DNA of 37,129 nt from Candidatus Omnitrophota bacterium (lineage in GTDB: Bacteria; Omnitrophota; Gorgyraeia; JABMRG01): NCBI GenBank assembly GCA_013202525.1, contig JABMQS010000067.1:1-37129 (forward strand), given 5' to 3'. The translations under genes were made by a program, and so were the position numbers. Position 1 is the stretch's first letter, and each line of letters begins with the position of its first letter. The notes below the pieces were generated by a model, which was not told where the DNA came from, did not search any database, and was given only the letters and a program-made list of their open reading frames with translations. Below, one piece after another: positions 25,291 through 34,784 of this stretch.

Positions 25291-25353
25291 GGTAAATTCG
25301 GCCTTACAGCTTATGTCAGCCTTCGGCTTACATAAGCTGTGGCCTCATTTACC
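25291..25353. repeat. Long hairpin between the HTH-TM gene and the PDZ gene
   Basis: GGTAAATTCGGCCTTACAGCTTATGTCAGCC-TTC-GGCTTACATAAGCTGTGGCCTCATTTACC is near-palindromic with 3-nt loop TTC; overlaps the HTH-TM stop codon. Confidence 0.8.
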
Positions 25354-25681
25354 TGATTGACCTGGCAATAAGATAGATCAGGATCGCAACCAATACAGCT
25401 GCGGCTATATAAAAATCGTTGAAATACAAGGAGTCCCTGATCCGTGAGATATAACCCTCCTTGCCTGAAGGCTGTCTTGAATTCTTGCCGGACTCCGAAA
25501 GCCCTGCCTTTGACTGCCCGGACTTCTTGATCGAAAGGATCTGCTCTTCCTTGAATCTGAGATACATTCCGCCGATCTGGTAAGCGGGGATATCACCCTT
25601 CTTGACAAGACGGCGCACCTCTTCCTCAGAGAGCCCCAGGGAATCTGCTGCCTCTTTAAGTGTAAGTAATTTATCTACCAT
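25349..25681 (-). CDS. Excisionase-type (HTH_17/MerR-like) DNA-binding protein with C-terminal membrane anchor
   Basis: LLTLKEAADSLGLSEEEVRRLVKKGDIPAYQIGGMYLRFKEEQI is a classic helix-turn-helix 17 motif; C-terminal FYIAAAVLVAILIYLIARSIR is a single TM helix. Confidence 0.85.
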   Translation of the reverse strand: MVDKLLTLKEAADSLGLSEEEVRRLVKKGDIPAYQIGGMYLRFKEEQILSIKKSGQSKAGLSESGKNSRQPSGKEGYISRIRDSLYFNDFYIAAAVLVAILIYLIARSIR

Positions 25682-25691
25682 ATGAACCTTA

Positions 25692-26252
25692 TCAGCGGCT
25701 TACCTTTTCACGTGCGACCCAGTTATCTACATCCTCCTTATAGAACTTCCAGGAGCCACCCTGCTTGATAGCCGGGATCTGCTTATCAACGGCCCACTCT
25801 TCCACCATGGAGGATTCAACTTCAAGATACCGGGCGACCTCATCTGCTGCCATCACCTTACCTTTTCCGGAAGTAGATGTGCTATCCGAAACACTCGACA
25901 TCTGGCAGCGACCATTTAATACCGCGCCCTCAGATACACTCAGTATCGGGGTCTTCACGTCACCCTCTATACGGGCAGGTGCTATAATGCTCAGCTTGCT
26001 CGTTGCCAGTATATTACCTGTCACGGTTCCGGCTATGGTAATATCCTCTCCGGTTATATCCGCCGCTACCACTGCCTTCTGGCCTATCGTGAGACTTCCC
26101 TTTGTGTCGAGCTTTCCCTCAAACTGACCATTGATGTGCAGGTTCACAGGGTCTTTAAATGTCATGGTACCCTGCATAGTCGCGTCGACGTCGAGGATCT
26201 TCTCCTCCGGCAGCTCTTTCCTGTTTCTCTTGAGTATTGCCATATCTCTCAC
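25692..26252 (-). CDS. Bactofilin with C-terminal HTH_17 DNA-binding domain
   Basis: TMQGTMTFKDPVNLHINGQFEGKLDTKGSLTIGQKAVVAADITGEDITIAGTVTGNI is the bactofilin repeat; C-terminal MAADEVARYLEVESSMVEEWAVDKQIPAIKQGGSWKFYKEDVDNWVA is HTH_17; true start probably MAILKRN. Confidence 0.85.
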   Translation of the reverse strand: MRDMAILKRNRKELPEEKILDVDATMQGTMTFKDPVNLHINGQFEGKLDTKGSLTIGQKAVVAADITGEDITIAGTVTGNILATSKLSIIAPARIEGDVKTPILSVSEGAVLNGRCQMSSVSDSTSTSGKGKVMAADEVARYLEVESSMVEEWAVDKQIPAIKQGGSWKFYKEDVDNWVAREKVSR

Positions 26253-26264
26253 CCCCTTCTTATC

Positions 26265-26708
26265 TTATTTGGTTTTTTTGCGGGCCAGCCTGCCCTGAAC
26301 CTTGGTCAGAGCAAGCAGGCATATCAATATTGTCACAACAGCGCCTGTAGCCACAATGAAGAGCCCTGATCCTATAGCCAGGCCGACGCCTGCTATAGAC
26401 CAGAGACTGGCTGCGGTCGTCAGGCCTACCACCGAGGCGCGGGATCTTATTATGGTACCTGCCCCGAGAAAACCTATGCCGCTTACCACCTGCGCAGCTA
26501 TCCTGCTCGGATCAGCAGCAGCTACGCCCTGATATATGTCACAGACATGCATCGATGTCAGCATTATAAGGCATGACCCGACGCATACCAGGATGTGCGT
26601 CCTGAAACCGGCGGCCTTCTCATGTATCTCCCTCTCTACGCCTACTATGCCGCCCAGGAGCGCCGCTACCAGCAACCTCAAAAGCATTTGTAGCTCTGAA
26701 ACCATCAT
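26265..26708 (-). CDS. MgtC/SapB family membrane protein
   Basis: LLRLLVAALLGGIVGVEREIHEKAAGFRTHILVCVGSCLIMLTS...RIAAQVVSGIGFLGAGTIIR is the MgtC signature. Confidence 0.95.
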   Translation of the reverse strand: MMVSELQMLLRLLVAALLGGIVGVEREIHEKAAGFRTHILVCVGSCLIMLTSMHVCDIYQGVAAADPSRIAAQVVSGIGFLGAGTIIRSRASVVGLTTAASLWSIAGVGLAIGSGLFIVATGAVVTILICLLALTKVQGRLARKKTK

Positions 26709-27498: not shown

Positions 27499-29337
27499 TT
27501 ATGCCCTTCTAAAAATATTTATGATCTCTTTTGCCTCTTTAAAGAGGCGTGTCCTGTCCTTTTCGCTATATTCAGATGGTGTAAAACGTGCCATATCGTA
27601 GGCCCTGAAAAAATTCCTTACCTTATTCAAGACCGATTCCTTAAAACCCTTCGGCTTCAGCACTTCATCGACCAGGTTCATCGTTATGCCGCCCGGGGGC
27701 AGGTTGAACTTATCACCAAAATATTCCTGAATAACAGTAAAGAGAAGATTGAAAAATTCCTCTGTCTTGTTCTGATCTGATAAGGAGCTGCATCTCCTTA
27801 AGCCCTTCAGTGCCTTTTTGTATGCATACCTTCTGCGCGCATAACTCATATCATTCCTTAGACGCTGGCGCCTCCTGTAAAAGACCAGTATGGATAGATA
27901 GATAAGGACAGGCAGTCCTTGCGAGAATATAAAGAGCTTGTTGGTATAGAGATATGTACCGGTCTTTCTGAACTTACCGGGGGCGTCCTTTATGTATATG
28001 ATATCCCTGCCTATTGCCTCTTTCTTAGGTAAGGTCTTTGCGGCCTCCACCTTTTCCTGGATCTCTGCCTCCTTTGCCTCATGCGCCTCTATGACCTTTA
28101 CGGATAAGGGGCCTTTGCTTATGGTCCTGTAGGCGTCTTTGGCAGGATCGAAAAAACTGAAAGCTATTGCAGGCACCTGCTTAAACGCTGTCGTCTTTGG
28201 AATAAGCACCTGTTCAAAGATCTTGTAGCTATCGGTCTGCTCCTTGAGGATCGGCTCATAAAGTATGTAGTCTTTACCCTCCCCGATTGCAGGTGGTGAA
28301 ACTATATCCATATTACCCTTTCCCGATATCTCCATAACAAGCGTCAGTGGCTGACCTGTCTTTACGTATCCGGAAGGGTCGAGCTTAAGGGTAAACCTGA
28401 AATCCCCGACTGCGCCGTTAAAGCCCGCGGGCCTTGCATCTGCCGGAAGCGGCAGTGCCGTTATATCCTTTGCCTCTGACTCTATCCGGAAGGGCCGCTT
28501 CTTATACTTCTGGTGTATGTCACGCAAGATATTGGATGTGCCGTACTTAGCTGCGCCTGCACCGGAAGCGGCAGATCCCTTTGAAGAAGGGGCCTTTGAT
28601 ATATCCATGCGATTACTGTTTAGAACAGCAGGGCCTAATTTCAGATCACCGGGCCTTGTCGCAAAGACGCTGCTTCGAAAAGTAACGAGATTATAAGTAT
28701 TGCCTTTGATAGTCTTTTTGGATTTCACAGGGGCAATAAACTCACCTATAGAAAAACCTTCATGCTCCAGTGACGGACGGCGTATGTCGGTAAGCATCAT
28801 ATCCCTATAATAAAGACCCATGCCTACATGAAGGATCTCGTTTACGTACACCTCATCCTTTTCCGTCTCTATCAACAGAAATGCCTGTTCCCTGGCATTG
28901 ATCCTCTCCTGCGCTGTAAGACCGGGCTCCTTGGGTAGGCGTTCAGCAGCGCCGCCTAGTACAGTTACACCTACCTCCTTAGATAGATACCTCTGACCAT
29001 CATATAAGATGTCAAAAGGCCCTATATTAAAGGCGCCGGAACGCTCAGGCATAAGGACATAAGTATGCCTGGTCGAATGCACTATCCCACCGTCTATCCT
29101 TGATACAGCATCAGATGACCTGAGATGTGTGGGTTTGAAGCCTTCTATTGCCGGTAACTGAGGAGGGGGCATATCCTTTACACCGTAAAAAGTGAGGTCT
29201 AATCTTATGCTTCCGCTTAATGGGATCTCATCTCTATCTATCTTGAGGGCTATCTCTCCTTGAGCCGCGCAGAGAACGGCTGTGCTGAATAATATCAGAA
29301 AAAATATGGCTAAAGATAGTAACCGGTTTATTCTCAT
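27499..29337 (-). CDS. batD: BatD-like (oxygen tolerance family) protein
   Basis: Signal peptide; IALKIDRDEIPLSGSIRLDLTFYG; KDEVYVNEILHVGMGLYY; GFNGAVGDFRFTLKLDPSGYVKTGQPLTLVMEISGKGNMDIVSPP, typical of BatD. Confidence 0.85.
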   Translation of the reverse strand: MRINRLLSLAIFFLILFSTAVLCAAQGEIALKIDRDEIPLSGSIRLDLTFYGVKDMPPPQLPAIEGFKPTHLRSSDAVSRIDGGIVHSTRHTYVLMPERSGAFNIGPFDILYDGQRYLSKEVGVTVLGGAAERLPKEPGLTAQERINAREQAFLLIETEKDEVYVNEILHVGMGLYYRDMMLTDIRRPSLEHEGFSIGEFIAPVKSKKTIKGNTYNLVTFRSSVFATRPGDLKLGPAVLNSNRMDISKAPSSKGSAASGAGAAKYGTSNILRDIHQKYKKRPFRIESEAKDITALPLPADARPAGFNGAVGDFRFTLKLDPSGYVKTGQPLTLVMEISGKGNMDIVSPPAIGEGKDYILYEPILKEQTDSYKIFEQVLIPKTTAFKQVPAIAFSFFDPAKDAYRTISKGPLSVKVIEAHEAKEAEIQEKVEAAKTLPKKEAIGRDIIYIKDAPGKFRKTGTYLYTNKLFIFSQGLPVLIYLSILVFYRRRQRLRNDMSYARRRYAYKKALKGLRRCSSLSDQNKTEEFFNLLFTVIQEYFGDKFNLPPGGITMNLVDEVLKPKGFKESVLNKVRNFFRAYDMARFTPSEYSEKDRTRLFKEAKEIINIFRRA

Positions 29338-29358
29338 ACTAAGCCGTAATCCTTCCCA

Positions 29359-30921
29359 CTACCAGTCCTTGTAAGGAGTTCTTCTCTCCCCGGAGCCACT
29401 CCTTGAGCCGCTGGCAGGGGCACCTTTTTCATAACCGTAAGCATCTAATAACTTGTCCGCCTCTTCCTTTGTAAGGCTCTTCTGGGACAAGGGCTGTTTC
29501 TCTATATTAGTATAATCCATAGGCCTGGCTCCATCAAGCCCTTTTTGCCCATGTGGCTGCATATCTCGGCGGCCTTTTTCAAGTTCATCAAGGCGCTCCT
29601 TGAGTTGTTGCTGTCTCTTCTTATGCTCCTCATCGAGTTTTTGCCTGTCAGCCTGGTGCTGCTGTTTGAGATCGCTCTCTCTTCTCTCATAATCCTGTTT
29701 GAGCTTCTGCTTCTGGGACTGGTGCTCTCTATTGAGCTCATCCTGGCGGGGCTTCAGCTCATCACCCTGGTGCTCCTTTTCAAGCTGTTGCTTCTTTTGG
29801 TTGAACTCCTCATCGAGCGAATCCTCCCTGTCCCCGCGCTCCTGGTCGAGCCTCTGCTTCTGGTCCTGGTATTCATTATCAAGCTTCTGCTGCTCTGCTT
29901 TCTGATTTTGCGCCCCCTGCTGCCGGGATTGTCGCTGTGCCGCCTTCTCTTGCTGGCGCTGCTTCTTTTGCTGCCGGGCTTGCTGCTGTTTAGCCTCTTG
30001 CTGCTCGGCCTGCTGTTGTTGCGAGTCTTGTTGGCCCTTTTGCTCTTGACTCTTCTGCTCCTTGGTATCCTGCTGAGCCTCCTGCTGCCCGGCCTCTTTC
30101 TCAGTCTGGCTCTCTGCCTGCTCCTTGGCCTGTTGCTGCTGCGTTTCTTGCTGCTGTTGAGGTTGTTGCTGCTGTTGTTGAGGTTGTTGCTGTTGTTGCG
30201 TCTCCTGCTGACTCTCCTGCTGCCGGGATTCCTGCTGTTGCTGCTGTTGTTGAGCTTGTTGCTGTCTTTGTTGCTGCTCAGTTTTTTGCTCTCGCTGCTG
30301 TTGCTGCCGGGGCTGTGACTGAGATTGCGACTCCTTCTTGGGTTGAGTCTTCCGGGAGGTGCCTGCACCGGCTGTGCCGGACGACCTGCCCCCCCTACCT
30401 GCACCTTTTGGCATATCCTGTTTCAATAATAGATAATCGAGCTTCTTCTTTACATACTCATAATTATAGATCGCCTTCTCCGTGGCAGGGTCCAGCTCGA
30501 TGGCGGCCTTATAATAGTGCAGCGCCTCTCTGCAAAACATTATCCCCTTGTTTAACTCATCCGTACAGGCCTCACTTAACCTATATTTACAGTTTCCAAT
30601 ATTGAAATTGGCACTTCTCTCCAGGGTTGCATTATCCGTTGCCATGCTCTTGGTAAATGCCTCTACTGCCTTTTCATACTCACCCTTTTCGTAAAAGACA
30701 TCCCCTCTGTTAAAATTTATTATATTCTCTCTCCTGGCATCGGATGTTTCTGTCAGCGCTGAATCATACCTCTCAAGCGCCTTGTCAAACTCCTCTGACC
30801 TGTAGAAGCGGTCGCCCTCATCAGCCAACTTTACTGCATTGTCTGCGGCAGAAAGGGGAGCTGTAAAAACAAAAAGTAGAATTGCTGACATCACTATAAG
30901 ACAGGTATACCTTGCAATCAT
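29359..30921 (-). CDS. batC: BatC-like TPR protein with long Gln-rich and charged coiled-coil region
   Basis: N-terminal signal and TPRs; then roughly 150 residues dominated by Q followed by charged Q/K/E/D/R helices; lies between batB and batD. Confidence 0.8.
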   Translation of the reverse strand: MIARYTCLIVMSAILLFVFTAPLSAADNAVKLADEGDRFYRSEEFDKALERYDSALTETSDARRENIINFNRGDVFYEKGEYEKAVEAFTKSMATDNATLERSANFNIGNCKYRLSEACTDELNKGIMFCREALHYYKAAIELDPATEKAIYNYEYVKKKLDYLLLKQDMPKGAGRGGRSSGTAGAGTSRKTQPKKESQSQSQPRQQQQREQKTEQQQRQQQAQQQQQQQESRQQESQQETQQQQQPQQQQQQPQQQQETQQQQAKEQAESQTEKEAGQQEAQQDTKEQKSQEQKGQQDSQQQQAEQQEAKQQQARQQKKQRQQEKAAQRQSRQQGAQNQKAEQQKLDNEYQDQKQRLDQERGDREDSLDEEFNQKKQQLEKEHQGDELKPRQDELNREHQSQKQKLKQDYERRESDLKQQHQADRQKLDEEHKKRQQQLKERLDELEKGRRDMQPHGQKGLDGARPMDYTNIEKQPLSQKSLTKEEADKLLDAYGYEKGAPASGSRSGSGERRTPYKDW

Positions 30922-31919
30922 CTCTTCCTCTCGGAGATCATAAGCTCAAGTGCAAGCAGAAGGAGGGCTATGGCTAAAGGTATCTGAAAACGTTCATGGT
31001 AGCGTTTCTGCCTCTTCAACTCTATCTCTCTCTTTTTAAGCCTGGATATCTTCTGTTGATACAATGGCCTGAGGCCAAACTCCGTATTCCTGCTGCGAAC
31101 ATAAGCGCCGCCTGTAATAAATGCTATCTCCTTGAGCACCTTCTCGTTCAAGCGGGACTTTACCTTGTTGCCCAAATCATCCTTCAGGAACTCCTTATAT
31201 CCCTTATCATCCACTATAGGTATGAAGGCCCCGCCCCGAGACCCGTCACCTATGCAGAATATCCTCACCCCTTCATCCCTGGCCTCTTTAGCAGCTTTTA
31301 CAGCATCGCCTTCATGTTCCTCGCCGTCACTTATGAGAACGAGTGCCCTGTAGTTCTTATCGACCGGGCTGTAACACCTTACCGCCTCGGCTATTGCTGT
31401 AGATAGTGAGGTGCCGCCCCTGGGTATGGTATCAGCGCGCAGGTCGTTAAGGGCCAGAAGGAAACCATCATAGTCTGAGGTAAGCGGGCATTGCACAAAC
31501 GATTCTCCTGCAAAAGCTATGAGGCCCACCCTATCCCCTTTTAACGTGCCGACCATATCCTTGATCGCCATCTTTGCGCGGTCCAGGCGGTTGGGCCTTA
31601 TGTCTTCAGCAAGCATACTCCTTGAAGTATCAACAGCAAAGATCACATCGAGCGCCTCCCTCTTTTGCTGTCCCCACTCAAAACCCCACTGCGGCCTTGT
31701 AAGGCTTACAAGCGAGAGCATAATCGCCGCACTGATAATCAGAATCTTGAGGTGCTGACGTCTGATATTCACAGAGTCTGTCAACTCGGGCCACAGGCGT
31801 TTATCCACAAACCTGCCGGCCAGCTCCCTTCTTTTGCGTATAACAAAGACCCAGAACCCCAGCAAAAGCGGTATAGACCAGATGATATATATTACTGCTA
31901 AAGGGTTCTCGAGCCTCAA
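30918..31919 (-). CDS. batB: VWA-domain membrane protein, BatB-like
   Basis: FAVDTSRSMLAEDIRPNRLDRAK (MIDAS DxSxS), FVQCPLTSDYDGF, ALVLISDGEEHEGDA; N- and C-terminal TM helices. Confidence 0.87.
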   Translation of the reverse strand: MRLENPLAVIYIIWSIPLLLGFWVFVIRKRRELAGRFVDKRLWPELTDSVNIRRQHLKILIISAAIMLSLVSLTRPQWGFEWGQQKREALDVIFAVDTSRSMLAEDIRPNRLDRAKMAIKDMVGTLKGDRVGLIAFAGESFVQCPLTSDYDGFLLALNDLRADTIPRGGTSLSTAIAEAVRCYSPVDKNYRALVLISDGEEHEGDAVKAAKEARDEGVRIFCIGDGSRGGAFIPIVDDKGYKEFLKDDLGNKVKSRLNEKVLKEIAFITGGAYVRSRNTEFGLRPLYQQKISRLKKREIELKRQKRYHERFQIPLAIALLLLALELMISERKR

Positions 31920-32914
31920 GGTATTCTCCTCAATACAGTATTAGATAAGACCAGATACAGGGATAAGATAATAAGCCCAAGTATCAAAAAGGTGCTGAAG
32001 AGTTCATTATACTCATCATAACCCTTCTCCTCCATGGGGATCTTCTCCATCCGGTTTATCTCATCATAGACCTTCTTAAGCGAGGCTGTATCTTCGGCCC
32101 TGAAATACCTGCCGCCGGTCTTATCAGCTATCTGCCGTAAAAGCTCCTCATCGAGATCCAGCCTTATCTGTTTATAGCCGGTCACCCTGCCCTTCCTGTC
32201 CTTGATGGGAAAGGGTACCTCCCCAAGAGTACCTACGCCTATGGTATAGATCTTTACATTATATGCTCTAGCGAGCTCCATTGCGGTCATTGGCGAGATC
32301 CTGCCGGCATTATTCTTGCCGTCTGTCAAAAGCACTATGATCTTACCCTGCGCCCTGGTATTCTTCAGCCTGTTGACAGATGAGGCTATGGCAGAACCGA
32401 TCGCTGTCTTGTTCTGCATCATGCCTGCATATACCCTGTCAAGGTTTTTAAGAAGCCAGGCGTGGTTTAGGGTCAAAGGGCAGAGGGTGTAAGCCCTGAC
32501 ACCAAACAATACAACTGCTATACGGTCGTTTTTTCTTTCAGAGGCAAATGAAGAGACCACCTGCTTAACCACATCGAGCCTGTTGTGCCTCTCGTCGCCT
32601 ACAGTGAAGTCCTCTGCGAGCATACTTGTCGATGCATCTATGGCAAGCACTATATCTATGCCCTCTCTCCTGTTTATGCTGTCTTCAACGGGGGACTGCG
32701 GCCTTGCCAGGGCGACTATCATCAGCGATATGGCTATGCACTCAAGATAGATCAGATTCTGGCCAAAGAAGGACCTGGCCGATGTGCCCAATCCGGATGC
32801 AAGTTTTATAGAGGAGAATGAGAAAGCGGCAAGCTTGCGCCTCCTTTTGACATAATAGCCGATAAGAAATACCACCGGTATAAATATGAGGACCCACGGG
32901 TCATGAAAGTTCAT
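31916..32914 (-). CDS. batA: VWA-domain membrane protein, BatA-like
   Basis: LAIDASTSMLAEDF (MIDAS), AYTLCPLTLNHAWLLKNL, IIVLLTDGKNNAG; TM helices. Confidence 0.87.
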   Translation of the reverse strand: MNFHDPWVLIFIPVVFLIGYYVKRRRKLAAFSFSSIKLASGLGTSARSFFGQNLIYLECIAISLMIVALARPQSPVEDSINRREGIDIVLAIDASTSMLAEDFTVGDERHNRLDVVKQVVSSFASERKNDRIAVVLFGVRAYTLCPLTLNHAWLLKNLDRVYAGMMQNKTAIGSAIASSVNRLKNTRAQGKIIVLLTDGKNNAGRISPMTAMELARAYNVKIYTIGVGTLGEVPFPIKDRKGRVTGYKQIRLDLDEELLRQIADKTGGRYFRAEDTASLKKVYDEINRMEKIPMEEKGYDEYNELFSTFLILGLIILSLYLVLSNTVLRRIP

Positions 32915-32921
32915 AGTCTAA

Positions 32922-33884
32922 TCAATCCGTCCTTTTACTTTGCAGGGGCCGTATCTCATCAAGCACAACCTTAAGGCGTGCTAGTGATTCCTTGAGCTCT
33001 TCCTGCTCTAAACCCTTATTGGCAAACTCAACCAGGTCGCAGTTCTTTAAAAAAGTCTCGATAAAATCCGCGTGCTTGCCTGAGAGACCCTTAGCAGACT
33101 TTGCCTTAGTCAAAAACTCCTCTGTGGTCAATGCGCCCGTATTTATTCCTAAGCGCGCAAGCAGATAGGCCTTTAGAAGTTCTGCCAGTCTTGCAAGGTC
33201 CTCTCTGCTTATCTCGTCTTTCTCAGAGAGCGCGGCCATAAATTTACTGAGCTCTTGATGCAAACGCACAACAGGCGCCGGCCCCCTTCTCAACCTATCC
33301 AGAACCTTTCTCTTGCTGATAAGCAGTAGCTTAACCGCAAATGCAAAAAGAACAAAGATGATCAATCCTGCGATTGTATGAAACCTACAGGGCCATCTTA
33401 AGCTTACCGGCGGCTCGATATCCCTTATATCCTCACCGATAGTCGCTTTAAGAAAAATACTATCAACATATATAGAAGTCACTTCGGAGTAGGCCTTCTT
33501 CCAGTCTCCTTTGCCGTCCCGATACCTGACTGCTACCGGAGGTATTGCCTGTTCACCGGTCTCATATGTAGTCAGTAGATAGAACCTGTTAAGGCCCTTC
33601 TCAGCGGCCTGACCTGCCTCTTCTGTCTTATACCCTTTGACCTCGAATACGCCGAGTTGGGTCACGGCATCAGGCAGGTCCACTTCCATCTCAGGCGGAG
33701 CCTTGACATTGATAATATACCAGAACCTCTCACCTATTCTTATCCTCTCTTTATCCGCGTAAGAGGTGACCTTGACAGGCTCTGATCCGGATAAGGCGTA
33801 GCGGCAGCTGCATAGCATAGAAAATACCAGCAGAGAAAAAAGCAATGTTGTCCTGATCCTTGGCATAATGCTCTTTCTAGTCAT
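32922..33884 (-). CDS. Membrane protein of the MoxR/Bat cluster (DUF4381/BatD-like)
   Basis: Signal peptide with Cys (SMLCSCR), beta-rich N-terminus, one TM helix (TIAGLIIFVLFAFAVKLLLI), helical C-terminus; located between DUF58 and batA. Confidence 0.7.
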   Translation of the reverse strand: MTRKSIMPRIRTTLLFSLLVFSMLCSCRYALSGSEPVKVTSYADKERIRIGERFWYIINVKAPPEMEVDLPDAVTQLGVFEVKGYKTEEAGQAAEKGLNRFYLLTTYETGEQAIPPVAVRYRDGKGDWKKAYSEVTSIYVDSIFLKATIGEDIRDIEPPVSLRWPCRFHTIAGLIIFVLFAFAVKLLLISKRKVLDRLRRGPAPVVRLHQELSKFMAALSEKDEISREDLARLAELLKAYLLARLGINTGALTTEEFLTKAKSAKGLSGKHADFIETFLKNCDLVEFANKGLEQEELKESLARLKVVLDEIRPLQSKRTD

Positions 33885-33893
33885 GGCGTCGAT

Positions 33894-34784
33894 TTAGTAA
33901 CCTCTGCGCTGCCTTCTCTCCCTAACCTTAAAGAATTTTATCAATGAATCTATATACGGGGTATCGGTATAGACATCGATGTTGTCTATCCCTATGGAGT
34001 TGAAAAATCTCTGCTGCTGGTTTAACCTCTGAAGCGACCTCTCGCGGTAATCCTTCCTGAAAGGAGCCGATGTATCTACCAGGAGCTGTTCGCCGGTCTC
34101 TGCGTCATCCATCGAGATAAGCCCGACACCGGGAAGTTCTGTCTCGCGCGGGTCTATGATGCGTATGGCGATCATATCATGGCGCTGGTTAGCAATGGTC
34201 AGCGTCTTCTCATAGTCCTTGATCAAAAAATCGGAGAGCAGGAAACAGACAGTCTTTCTATGGGTTATCATATTAAAATAGTCCAGGGCCCGCACGAGTT
34301 CAGTGCCTCTTCCCTGGGGCTCAAAGGCAATGGCCTCACGCACTAACCTTAGGACATGATTTGTGCCTTTTCGCGGAGGGATGACCTTCTCGATCTTATC
34401 CGTAAAGATAATCAGCCCCACCTTGTCCTGGTTATGGATAGCGGAGAACGCCAGCACAGAGCAGATCTCTGCGGCAAGCTCACTCTTTAACTGTCTCTTT
34501 GAGCCGAAGCGGCAGGAGGAAGAACCATCCAGAAGCAGCATCACGGTAAGCTCCCTCTCCTCGATAAATTTCTTGACCTGGAGGCGGCCTGTCCTGGCAG
34601 TGACATTCCAGTCTATGGAACGGATCTCATCACCGGGCTGATACTCCCTTACGGCATCAAACTCCATACCACGGCCCTTAAACACACTCTGGTACTGGCC
34701 TGCAAATACCTCGCGGACCATCTTAGAGGTGATGATGGAGATCCTTCGTATCTTATCCAGTAGCTCCTGCTTTATCATCGTCAA
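33894..34784 (-). CDS. DUF58 domain protein
   Basis: FKGRGMEFDAVREYQPGDEIRSIDWNVTARTGRLQVKKFIEERELTVMLLLDGSSS is the DUF58 signature. Confidence 0.93.
   Translation of the reverse strand: MTMIKQELLDKIRRISIITSKMVREVFAGQYQSVFKGRGMEFDAVREYQPGDEIRSIDWNVTARTGRLQVKKFIEERELTVMLLLDGSSSCRFGSKRQLKSELAAEICSVLAFSAIHNQDKVGLIIFTDKIEKVIPPRKGTNHVLRLVREAIAFEPQGRGTELVRALDYFNMITHRKTVCFLLSDFLIKDYEKTLTIANQRHDMIAIRIIDPRETELPGVGLISMDDAETGEQLLVDTSAPFRKDYRERSLQRLNQQQRFFNSIGIDNIDVYTDTPYIDSLIKFFKVRERRQRRGY

Follow-up and report, generated by a model that had tools for sequence, protein, structure and literature searches.

Bactofilins are widespread, and how they choose their clients is poorly understood. Their polymerization requires a hydrophobic residue at the position of F105 in the T. 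thermophilus protein and F130 in the Caulobacter protein, and membrane attachment is usually provided by an N-terminal peptide with the consensus MFSKKKK. Client contacts at bactofilin C termini are already known, namely between the BacP tail and PadC and between BacA and PbpC. The winged HTH protein BldC contacts DNA through Lys26, Thr27, Thr29, Arg30, Trp31, Lys33, His46, Arg47, and Arg48 (PMC5859096). Arg30 reads bases, and the R30A exchange abolishes binding (PMC5859096). In the head-to-tail dimer of BldC, F21, V23, and W31 pack against L11', I40', T42', L43', and G44', and G44E abolishes the dimer as well as DNA binding (PMC5859096). In CbpM, a MerR-like HTH has lost the Tyr and Arg needed for DNA binding and instead recognizes a basic J-domain via acidic residues (PMC4063869).

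The stretch of DNA analyzed here (the window; 37,129 nucleotides) is part of a 1.6-Mb draft genome of a Candidatus Omnitrophota bacterium. On its minus strand, an mgtC gene, a bactofilin-HTH fusion gene, and a gene for a small HTH-TM protein, the candidate partner of the fusion, follow one another in this order and are tightly packed:

26265 to 26708, minus strand: gene for an mgtC-family membrane protein, upstream of the fusion and 21 bp from its probable start codon (ATG 26243)
25692 to 26252, minus strand: bactofilin-HTH fusion ORF, 186 aa from GTG 26252 or 183 aa from the probable ATG 26243
25902 to 26198, minus strand: bactofilin beta-helix domain, PF04519 (profile match and predicted fold)
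25710 to 25856, minus strand: winged HTH (HTH_17) at the C terminus, acidic at the positions that would face DNA (profile, predicted fold, and alignment)
25349 to 25681, minus strand: gene for the HTH-TM partner, 110 aa, 10 bp downstream of the fusion (profile and neighborhood comparison)

An initial annotation, made from the sequence alone, had claimed that one ORF joins a bactofilin domain to a C-terminal HTH_17 motif. Profile searches bore this out, as both domains scored above the curated cut-offs. PF04519 matched fusion residues 19-117 (E = 1.1e-24; 86.9 bits versus a cut-off of 27.9), and HTH_17 (PF12728) matched residues 137-181 (E = 5.8e-9; 36.5 bits versus 27). TIGR01764 was also matched (40.5 bits versus a cut-off of 28.8), and both PF04519 and HTH_17 were found in 45/45 aligned fusion members. 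Translation likely starts at ATG 26243 (MAILKRNRK...), behind GGGGGTGAG, and not at GTG 26252. AF2 predicted a confident beta-helix and a separate, equally confident winged HTH (mean pLDDT 88.9, both domains mostly above 90), connected by a short disordered linker (pLDDT about 51) that is reduced to a few residues in some relatives. Foldseek matched the beta-helix to Caulobacter BacA (2n3d) and the T. thermophilus protein (6rib) and the HTH to RacA, RdfS, and BldC, with E values of 0.006 to 0.3 across the fusion searches and probabilities of about 1. The residue corresponding to F105/F130 was L, F, I, M, or V in all 108 matched sequences, another 16 sequences falling outside the search pattern. 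The self-polymerizing scaffold with many HTH heads envisaged in the initial annotation is supported by these results, and non-polar, nucleotide-independent filaments would be expected of the Omnitrophota fusion from the behavior of the bactofilin family. Many Omnitrophota fusions keep an MTS-like N terminus (MAFKKK..., MALRRR...), suggesting that a separate membrane anchor is not strictly needed, a point that counts against the docking model proposed below.

The distribution of the fusion was surveyed within Omnitrophota, in 243 genomes from the whole phylum and 59 relatives of the window's genome. Matches at E 1e-12 were obtained in 218/243 genomes, inside and outside the window's class, and a full-length fusion was present in about 209/243 (scores below 1e-50; counted by hand from the table) and in 47/59 close relatives. 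Among the 59 relatives, the fusion was nearly always the sole bactofilin of its genome. Genomes without the fusion almost always lacked bactofilins altogether. In Omnitrophota, then, the fused architecture is the standard form of bactofilin. Because it recurs phylum-wide, and in most related genomes, as a single uninterrupted ORF, an assembly artefact was excluded. No paper on a bactofilin-HTH fusion or on bactofilins in Omnitrophota was found in the open literature, in agreement with the initial annotation, which knew of no described system with this architecture. New are the folded HTH on a bactofilin as a putative docking domain, its phylum-wide fixation, and the constant HTH-TM neighbor. 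A second bactofilin, devoid of an HTH, was seen at one locus (L088, G054:C26). It adjoins a gene for a ParA-type ATPase, a pairing that recalls the bactofilin-ParA link of Myxococcus; the C terminus of this ATPase matches the glycogen-binding module AMPK1_CBM (E = 4e-10), an odd fusion.

The partner consists of an N-terminal HTH_17 (matched in 43/43 partner proteins), a linker, the motif LYFNDFYI, and one C-terminal TM helix; its topology is presumably N-in. Across loci, the linker is variable and the motif DFxYFNDFYI is conserved. A search for similar folds returned the CbpM structure 3ucs among the top matches, the nearest solved folds of the partner HTH also including BldC, RacA, and RdfS. 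The initial annotation had recognized the fusion correctly but had missed this gene. In 124/124 fusion loci it directly follows the fusion gene downstream, with the same orientation and a median gap of 24 bp. Among the 59 relatives, 47/47 genomes with the fusion and 4/12 without it contain the partner (Fisher 2e-7, uncorrected for phylogeny). Such an invariant neighbor would be a more economical partner for the fusion HTH than the chromosome. Several lineages keep the partner without a bactofilin, which points to some independent role of the partner. In genus g34, the intervening bactofilin gene is absent and mgtC directly adjoins the partner gene, implying loss of the bactofilin and retention of the partner. 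Two variants were noted in genomes without a bactofilin. The first, a 64-aa protein (L249:1340-1531, minus strand, G043), retains the aromatic motif and the TM helix of the partner but no HTH, and its genus lacks both full genes. The second (L251:1244-1603, minus strand, G030) is a divergent partner whose HTH lacks the conserved Y40/R48 region.

The surroundings of the gene pair were less uniform. mgtC was found on the fusion's strand in 36/44 loci, mostly directly upstream, and the order gatB-ctpA-polysaccharide deacetylase-tsaD-mgtC upstream with larB downstream was common, not invariant. No ctpA/tsaD context is present at the locus in the window. Unlike the gatB-ctpA-tsaD arrangement of most relatives, a BatD/VWA (Bat/aerotolerance-type) operon lies directly upstream of mgtC and the bactofilin gene (27499-34784). 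It includes a TPR protein (29359-30921, minus strand) whose low-complexity region, rich in Gln/Glu/Lys, is very long. A scan for promoters and terminators yielded results at chance level.

In our best reading, the HTH would be of the CbpM-like, protein-binding kind and would link the polymer to another protein, the membrane protein encoded next to it being the most likely candidate. We assign a probability of roughly 0.55 to the proposal that the HTH of the fusion is a protein-binding module docking the bactofilin polymer to the HTH of the downstream tail-anchored membrane protein. The excisionase/MerR-fold winged HTH would have been converted from a DNA-binding into a protein-binding module. 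Polymerization of the bactofilin domain, as known for the family, would display an array of acidic, Trp-bearing HTH heads, which may dock onto the cytoplasmic HTH of the membrane protein through a putative HTH-HTH contact. Docking would tie the polymer to the inner membrane and to whatever the anchor organizes, and the pair could thereby serve envelope organization. Alternatively, the HTH may serve a different client, such as MgtC, an enzyme acting on the cell wall, or some soluble protein, with the HTH-TM protein merely co-transcribed. The usual position of mgtC just upstream, the proximity of ctpA and the polysaccharide deacetylase gene in most loci, and the separate loss of partner and bactofilin would agree with such a client. 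We nevertheless regard it as unlikely, given that the HTH-TM gene is the sole invariant one (124/124, compared with 36/44 for mgtC) and that the window's locus is devoid of ctpA and tsaD.

For an assessment of DNA binding, the HTHs of 125 fusions and 125 partners were aligned to BldC, a template of only about 24% identity, together with 40 standalone HTH_17 proteins of this genome group; the standalone set was collected with the fusion HTH as query and is biased towards similarity. For the contact-bearing part of the BldC reference, through residue 49, the sequence was consistent with the PDB alignment and with the numbering of the paper. At BldC position 30, 82% of the fusions carry E/D, whereas 85% of the standalones carry N/R/K. 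Thr occupies position 27 in 13% of fusions versus 92% of standalones, and Tyr29, present in 90% of standalones, is not among the five commonest residues in fusions. Position 22 is E in 92% of fusions versus K/R in 80% of standalones; D/E24 (96%) and E/D42 (87%) add further acidic residues in the 125 fusion sequences. A basic DNA face with Thr27/Tyr29/Arg30-type contacts, as in the MerR/excisionase type, was thus not found in the fusion HTHs. The alignment speaks strongly against DNA binding of the ordinary MerR/excisionase type by this domain; weak or unusual binding may occur.

These data bear on the chromosome-tethering or locus-clustering role put forward in the initial annotation. HTH heads bound to DNA would allow the polymer to fasten the nucleoid to the membrane, directly or via the HTH-TM partner, in the manner of RacA or BacNOP-PadC-ParA. 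Both HTHs have the winged fold of the DNA binders BldC, RacA, and RdfS, a weak array could bind DNA by avidity, wing position 48 is K/R in about 68% of fusions and R in 100% of partners, and Myxococcus bactofilins organize chromosome segregation through PadC. However, base-reading and phosphate-contacting positions are lost or charge-reversed and the DNA face is acidic across the 125 fusion sequences, the mean net charge of the core being -2.6 versus +4.2 in standalones (p = 2e-21). The partner HTHs are intermediate (+0.6), with a helix 2 that is net negative too (mean -1.2 versus +2.9 in standalones). The tether is quite unlikely on this evidence. With the DNA-contact residues of its tail domain lost, the scaffold is more likely clipped to a membrane protein than to the chromosome, and the loss agrees with a further suggestion of the initial annotation, that the HTH might instead bind protein.

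Docking of the fusion HTH onto the partner HTH was examined against the BldC dimer interface. The "head" is kept in the fusion (L21, V23, and W31, the latter in 96%), and the fusion "tail" has acidic residues at position 42 and mostly N or D at position 44. In the partner, the "tail" is kept, with an aromatic residue at position 40 in 100%, I/V/L42 in 98%, and G44 in 97%. Position 44 of the fusion was mostly Gly in sampled genomes of other classes, so that the window's class is the only one in which the fusion has clearly lost its "tail." The aromatic residue 40 of the partner was conserved in 124/124 cases with a bactofilin; without one it was kept in 4/10 and changed in 3/5 loss lineages. 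Read against a distant template and resting on few independent events, the head/tail and aromatic-40 pattern would fit a heterotypic clip. Mutual-information covariation between the two HTHs (APC, Neff 71) did not rise above phylogenetic noise. A reciprocal charge swap at helix-1 position 15, striking between classes (fusion acidic/partner basic versus fusion basic/partner acidic), vanished within classes (rank 110 of 650); it therefore amounts to roughly a single event and was set aside as evidence. The strongest pair with opposite charges both ways, fusion position 41 and partner position 18, is confounded by phylogeny.

Self-association of the fusion HTH, bundling or capping bactofilin filaments, is very improbable, for although the HTHs of BldC and RdfS oligomerize head-to-tail and Leu21/Val23/Trp31 are kept, the "tail" of the fusion has E/D at position 42 and usually N or D at position 44, and the BldC dimer is abolished by G44E. 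A mobile-element origin, suggested by the name "excisionase," was rejected: there was no phage match, viral contigs gave only a weak HTH-only match, and plasmid matches span the bactofilin part only. MAD1 of the methylation-associated defense system (NF047737) was likewise rejected (fusion 53.1 bits and partner 29.8 bits versus a cut-off of 80).

A wider proposal, which we advance tentatively and at less than even odds, is that of a phylum-defining cytoskeletal module. Two repurposed excisionase-fold domains, carried by a self-polymerizing bactofilin and by a tail-anchored membrane protein, might engage each other in a heterotypic head-to-tail clip that descends from the interface of a DNA-bound oligomer, and the polymer might template membrane organization in a phylum for which cultured models are few or absent. 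Nearly the whole phylum has fixed one folded, putative bactofilin docking domain and one constant neighbor, and this pair offers a handle on Omnitrophota cell biology. If the two HTHs bind each other, they would represent a clear case of a DNA-binding fold and its oligomer interface turned into a connector of cytoskeleton and membrane. An HTH_17 annotation should not be equated with DNA binding.

Compared with known systems, the fusion shares the beta-helix of the canonical bactofilins Caulobacter BacA (2n3d) and T. thermophilus bactofilin (6ria/6rib) by profile (E = 1.7e-12 and 1e-11) and fold, and their short basic N terminus is common to many Omnitrophota fusions. The C-terminal tails of canonical bactofilins are short and mostly poorly conserved (PMC12448750), whereas the Omnitrophota fusion carries a folded winged HTH. 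In the BacP-PadC-ParA system of Myxococcus xanthus, as in our docking model, a C-terminal bactofilin extension is the docking site for a partner; the BacP extension, however, is disordered and the DNA-binding protein separate, while the fusion has an acidic-faced HTH and a constant membrane-protein neighbor. BldC, RacA, and RdfS provide the nearest solved folds of both the fusion and the partner HTH. BldC binds DNA via basic residues that are absent from the fusion HTH; RacA and RdfS are also DNA binders, the residue comparison being with BldC alone. CbpM (3ucs, bound to the CbpA J-domain), a fold match of the partner, uses a MerR/excisionase fold for protein binding; its observed likeness to the fusion lies in the acidic surface and the loss of DNA contacts. 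It differs in its parallel coiled coil and its target.
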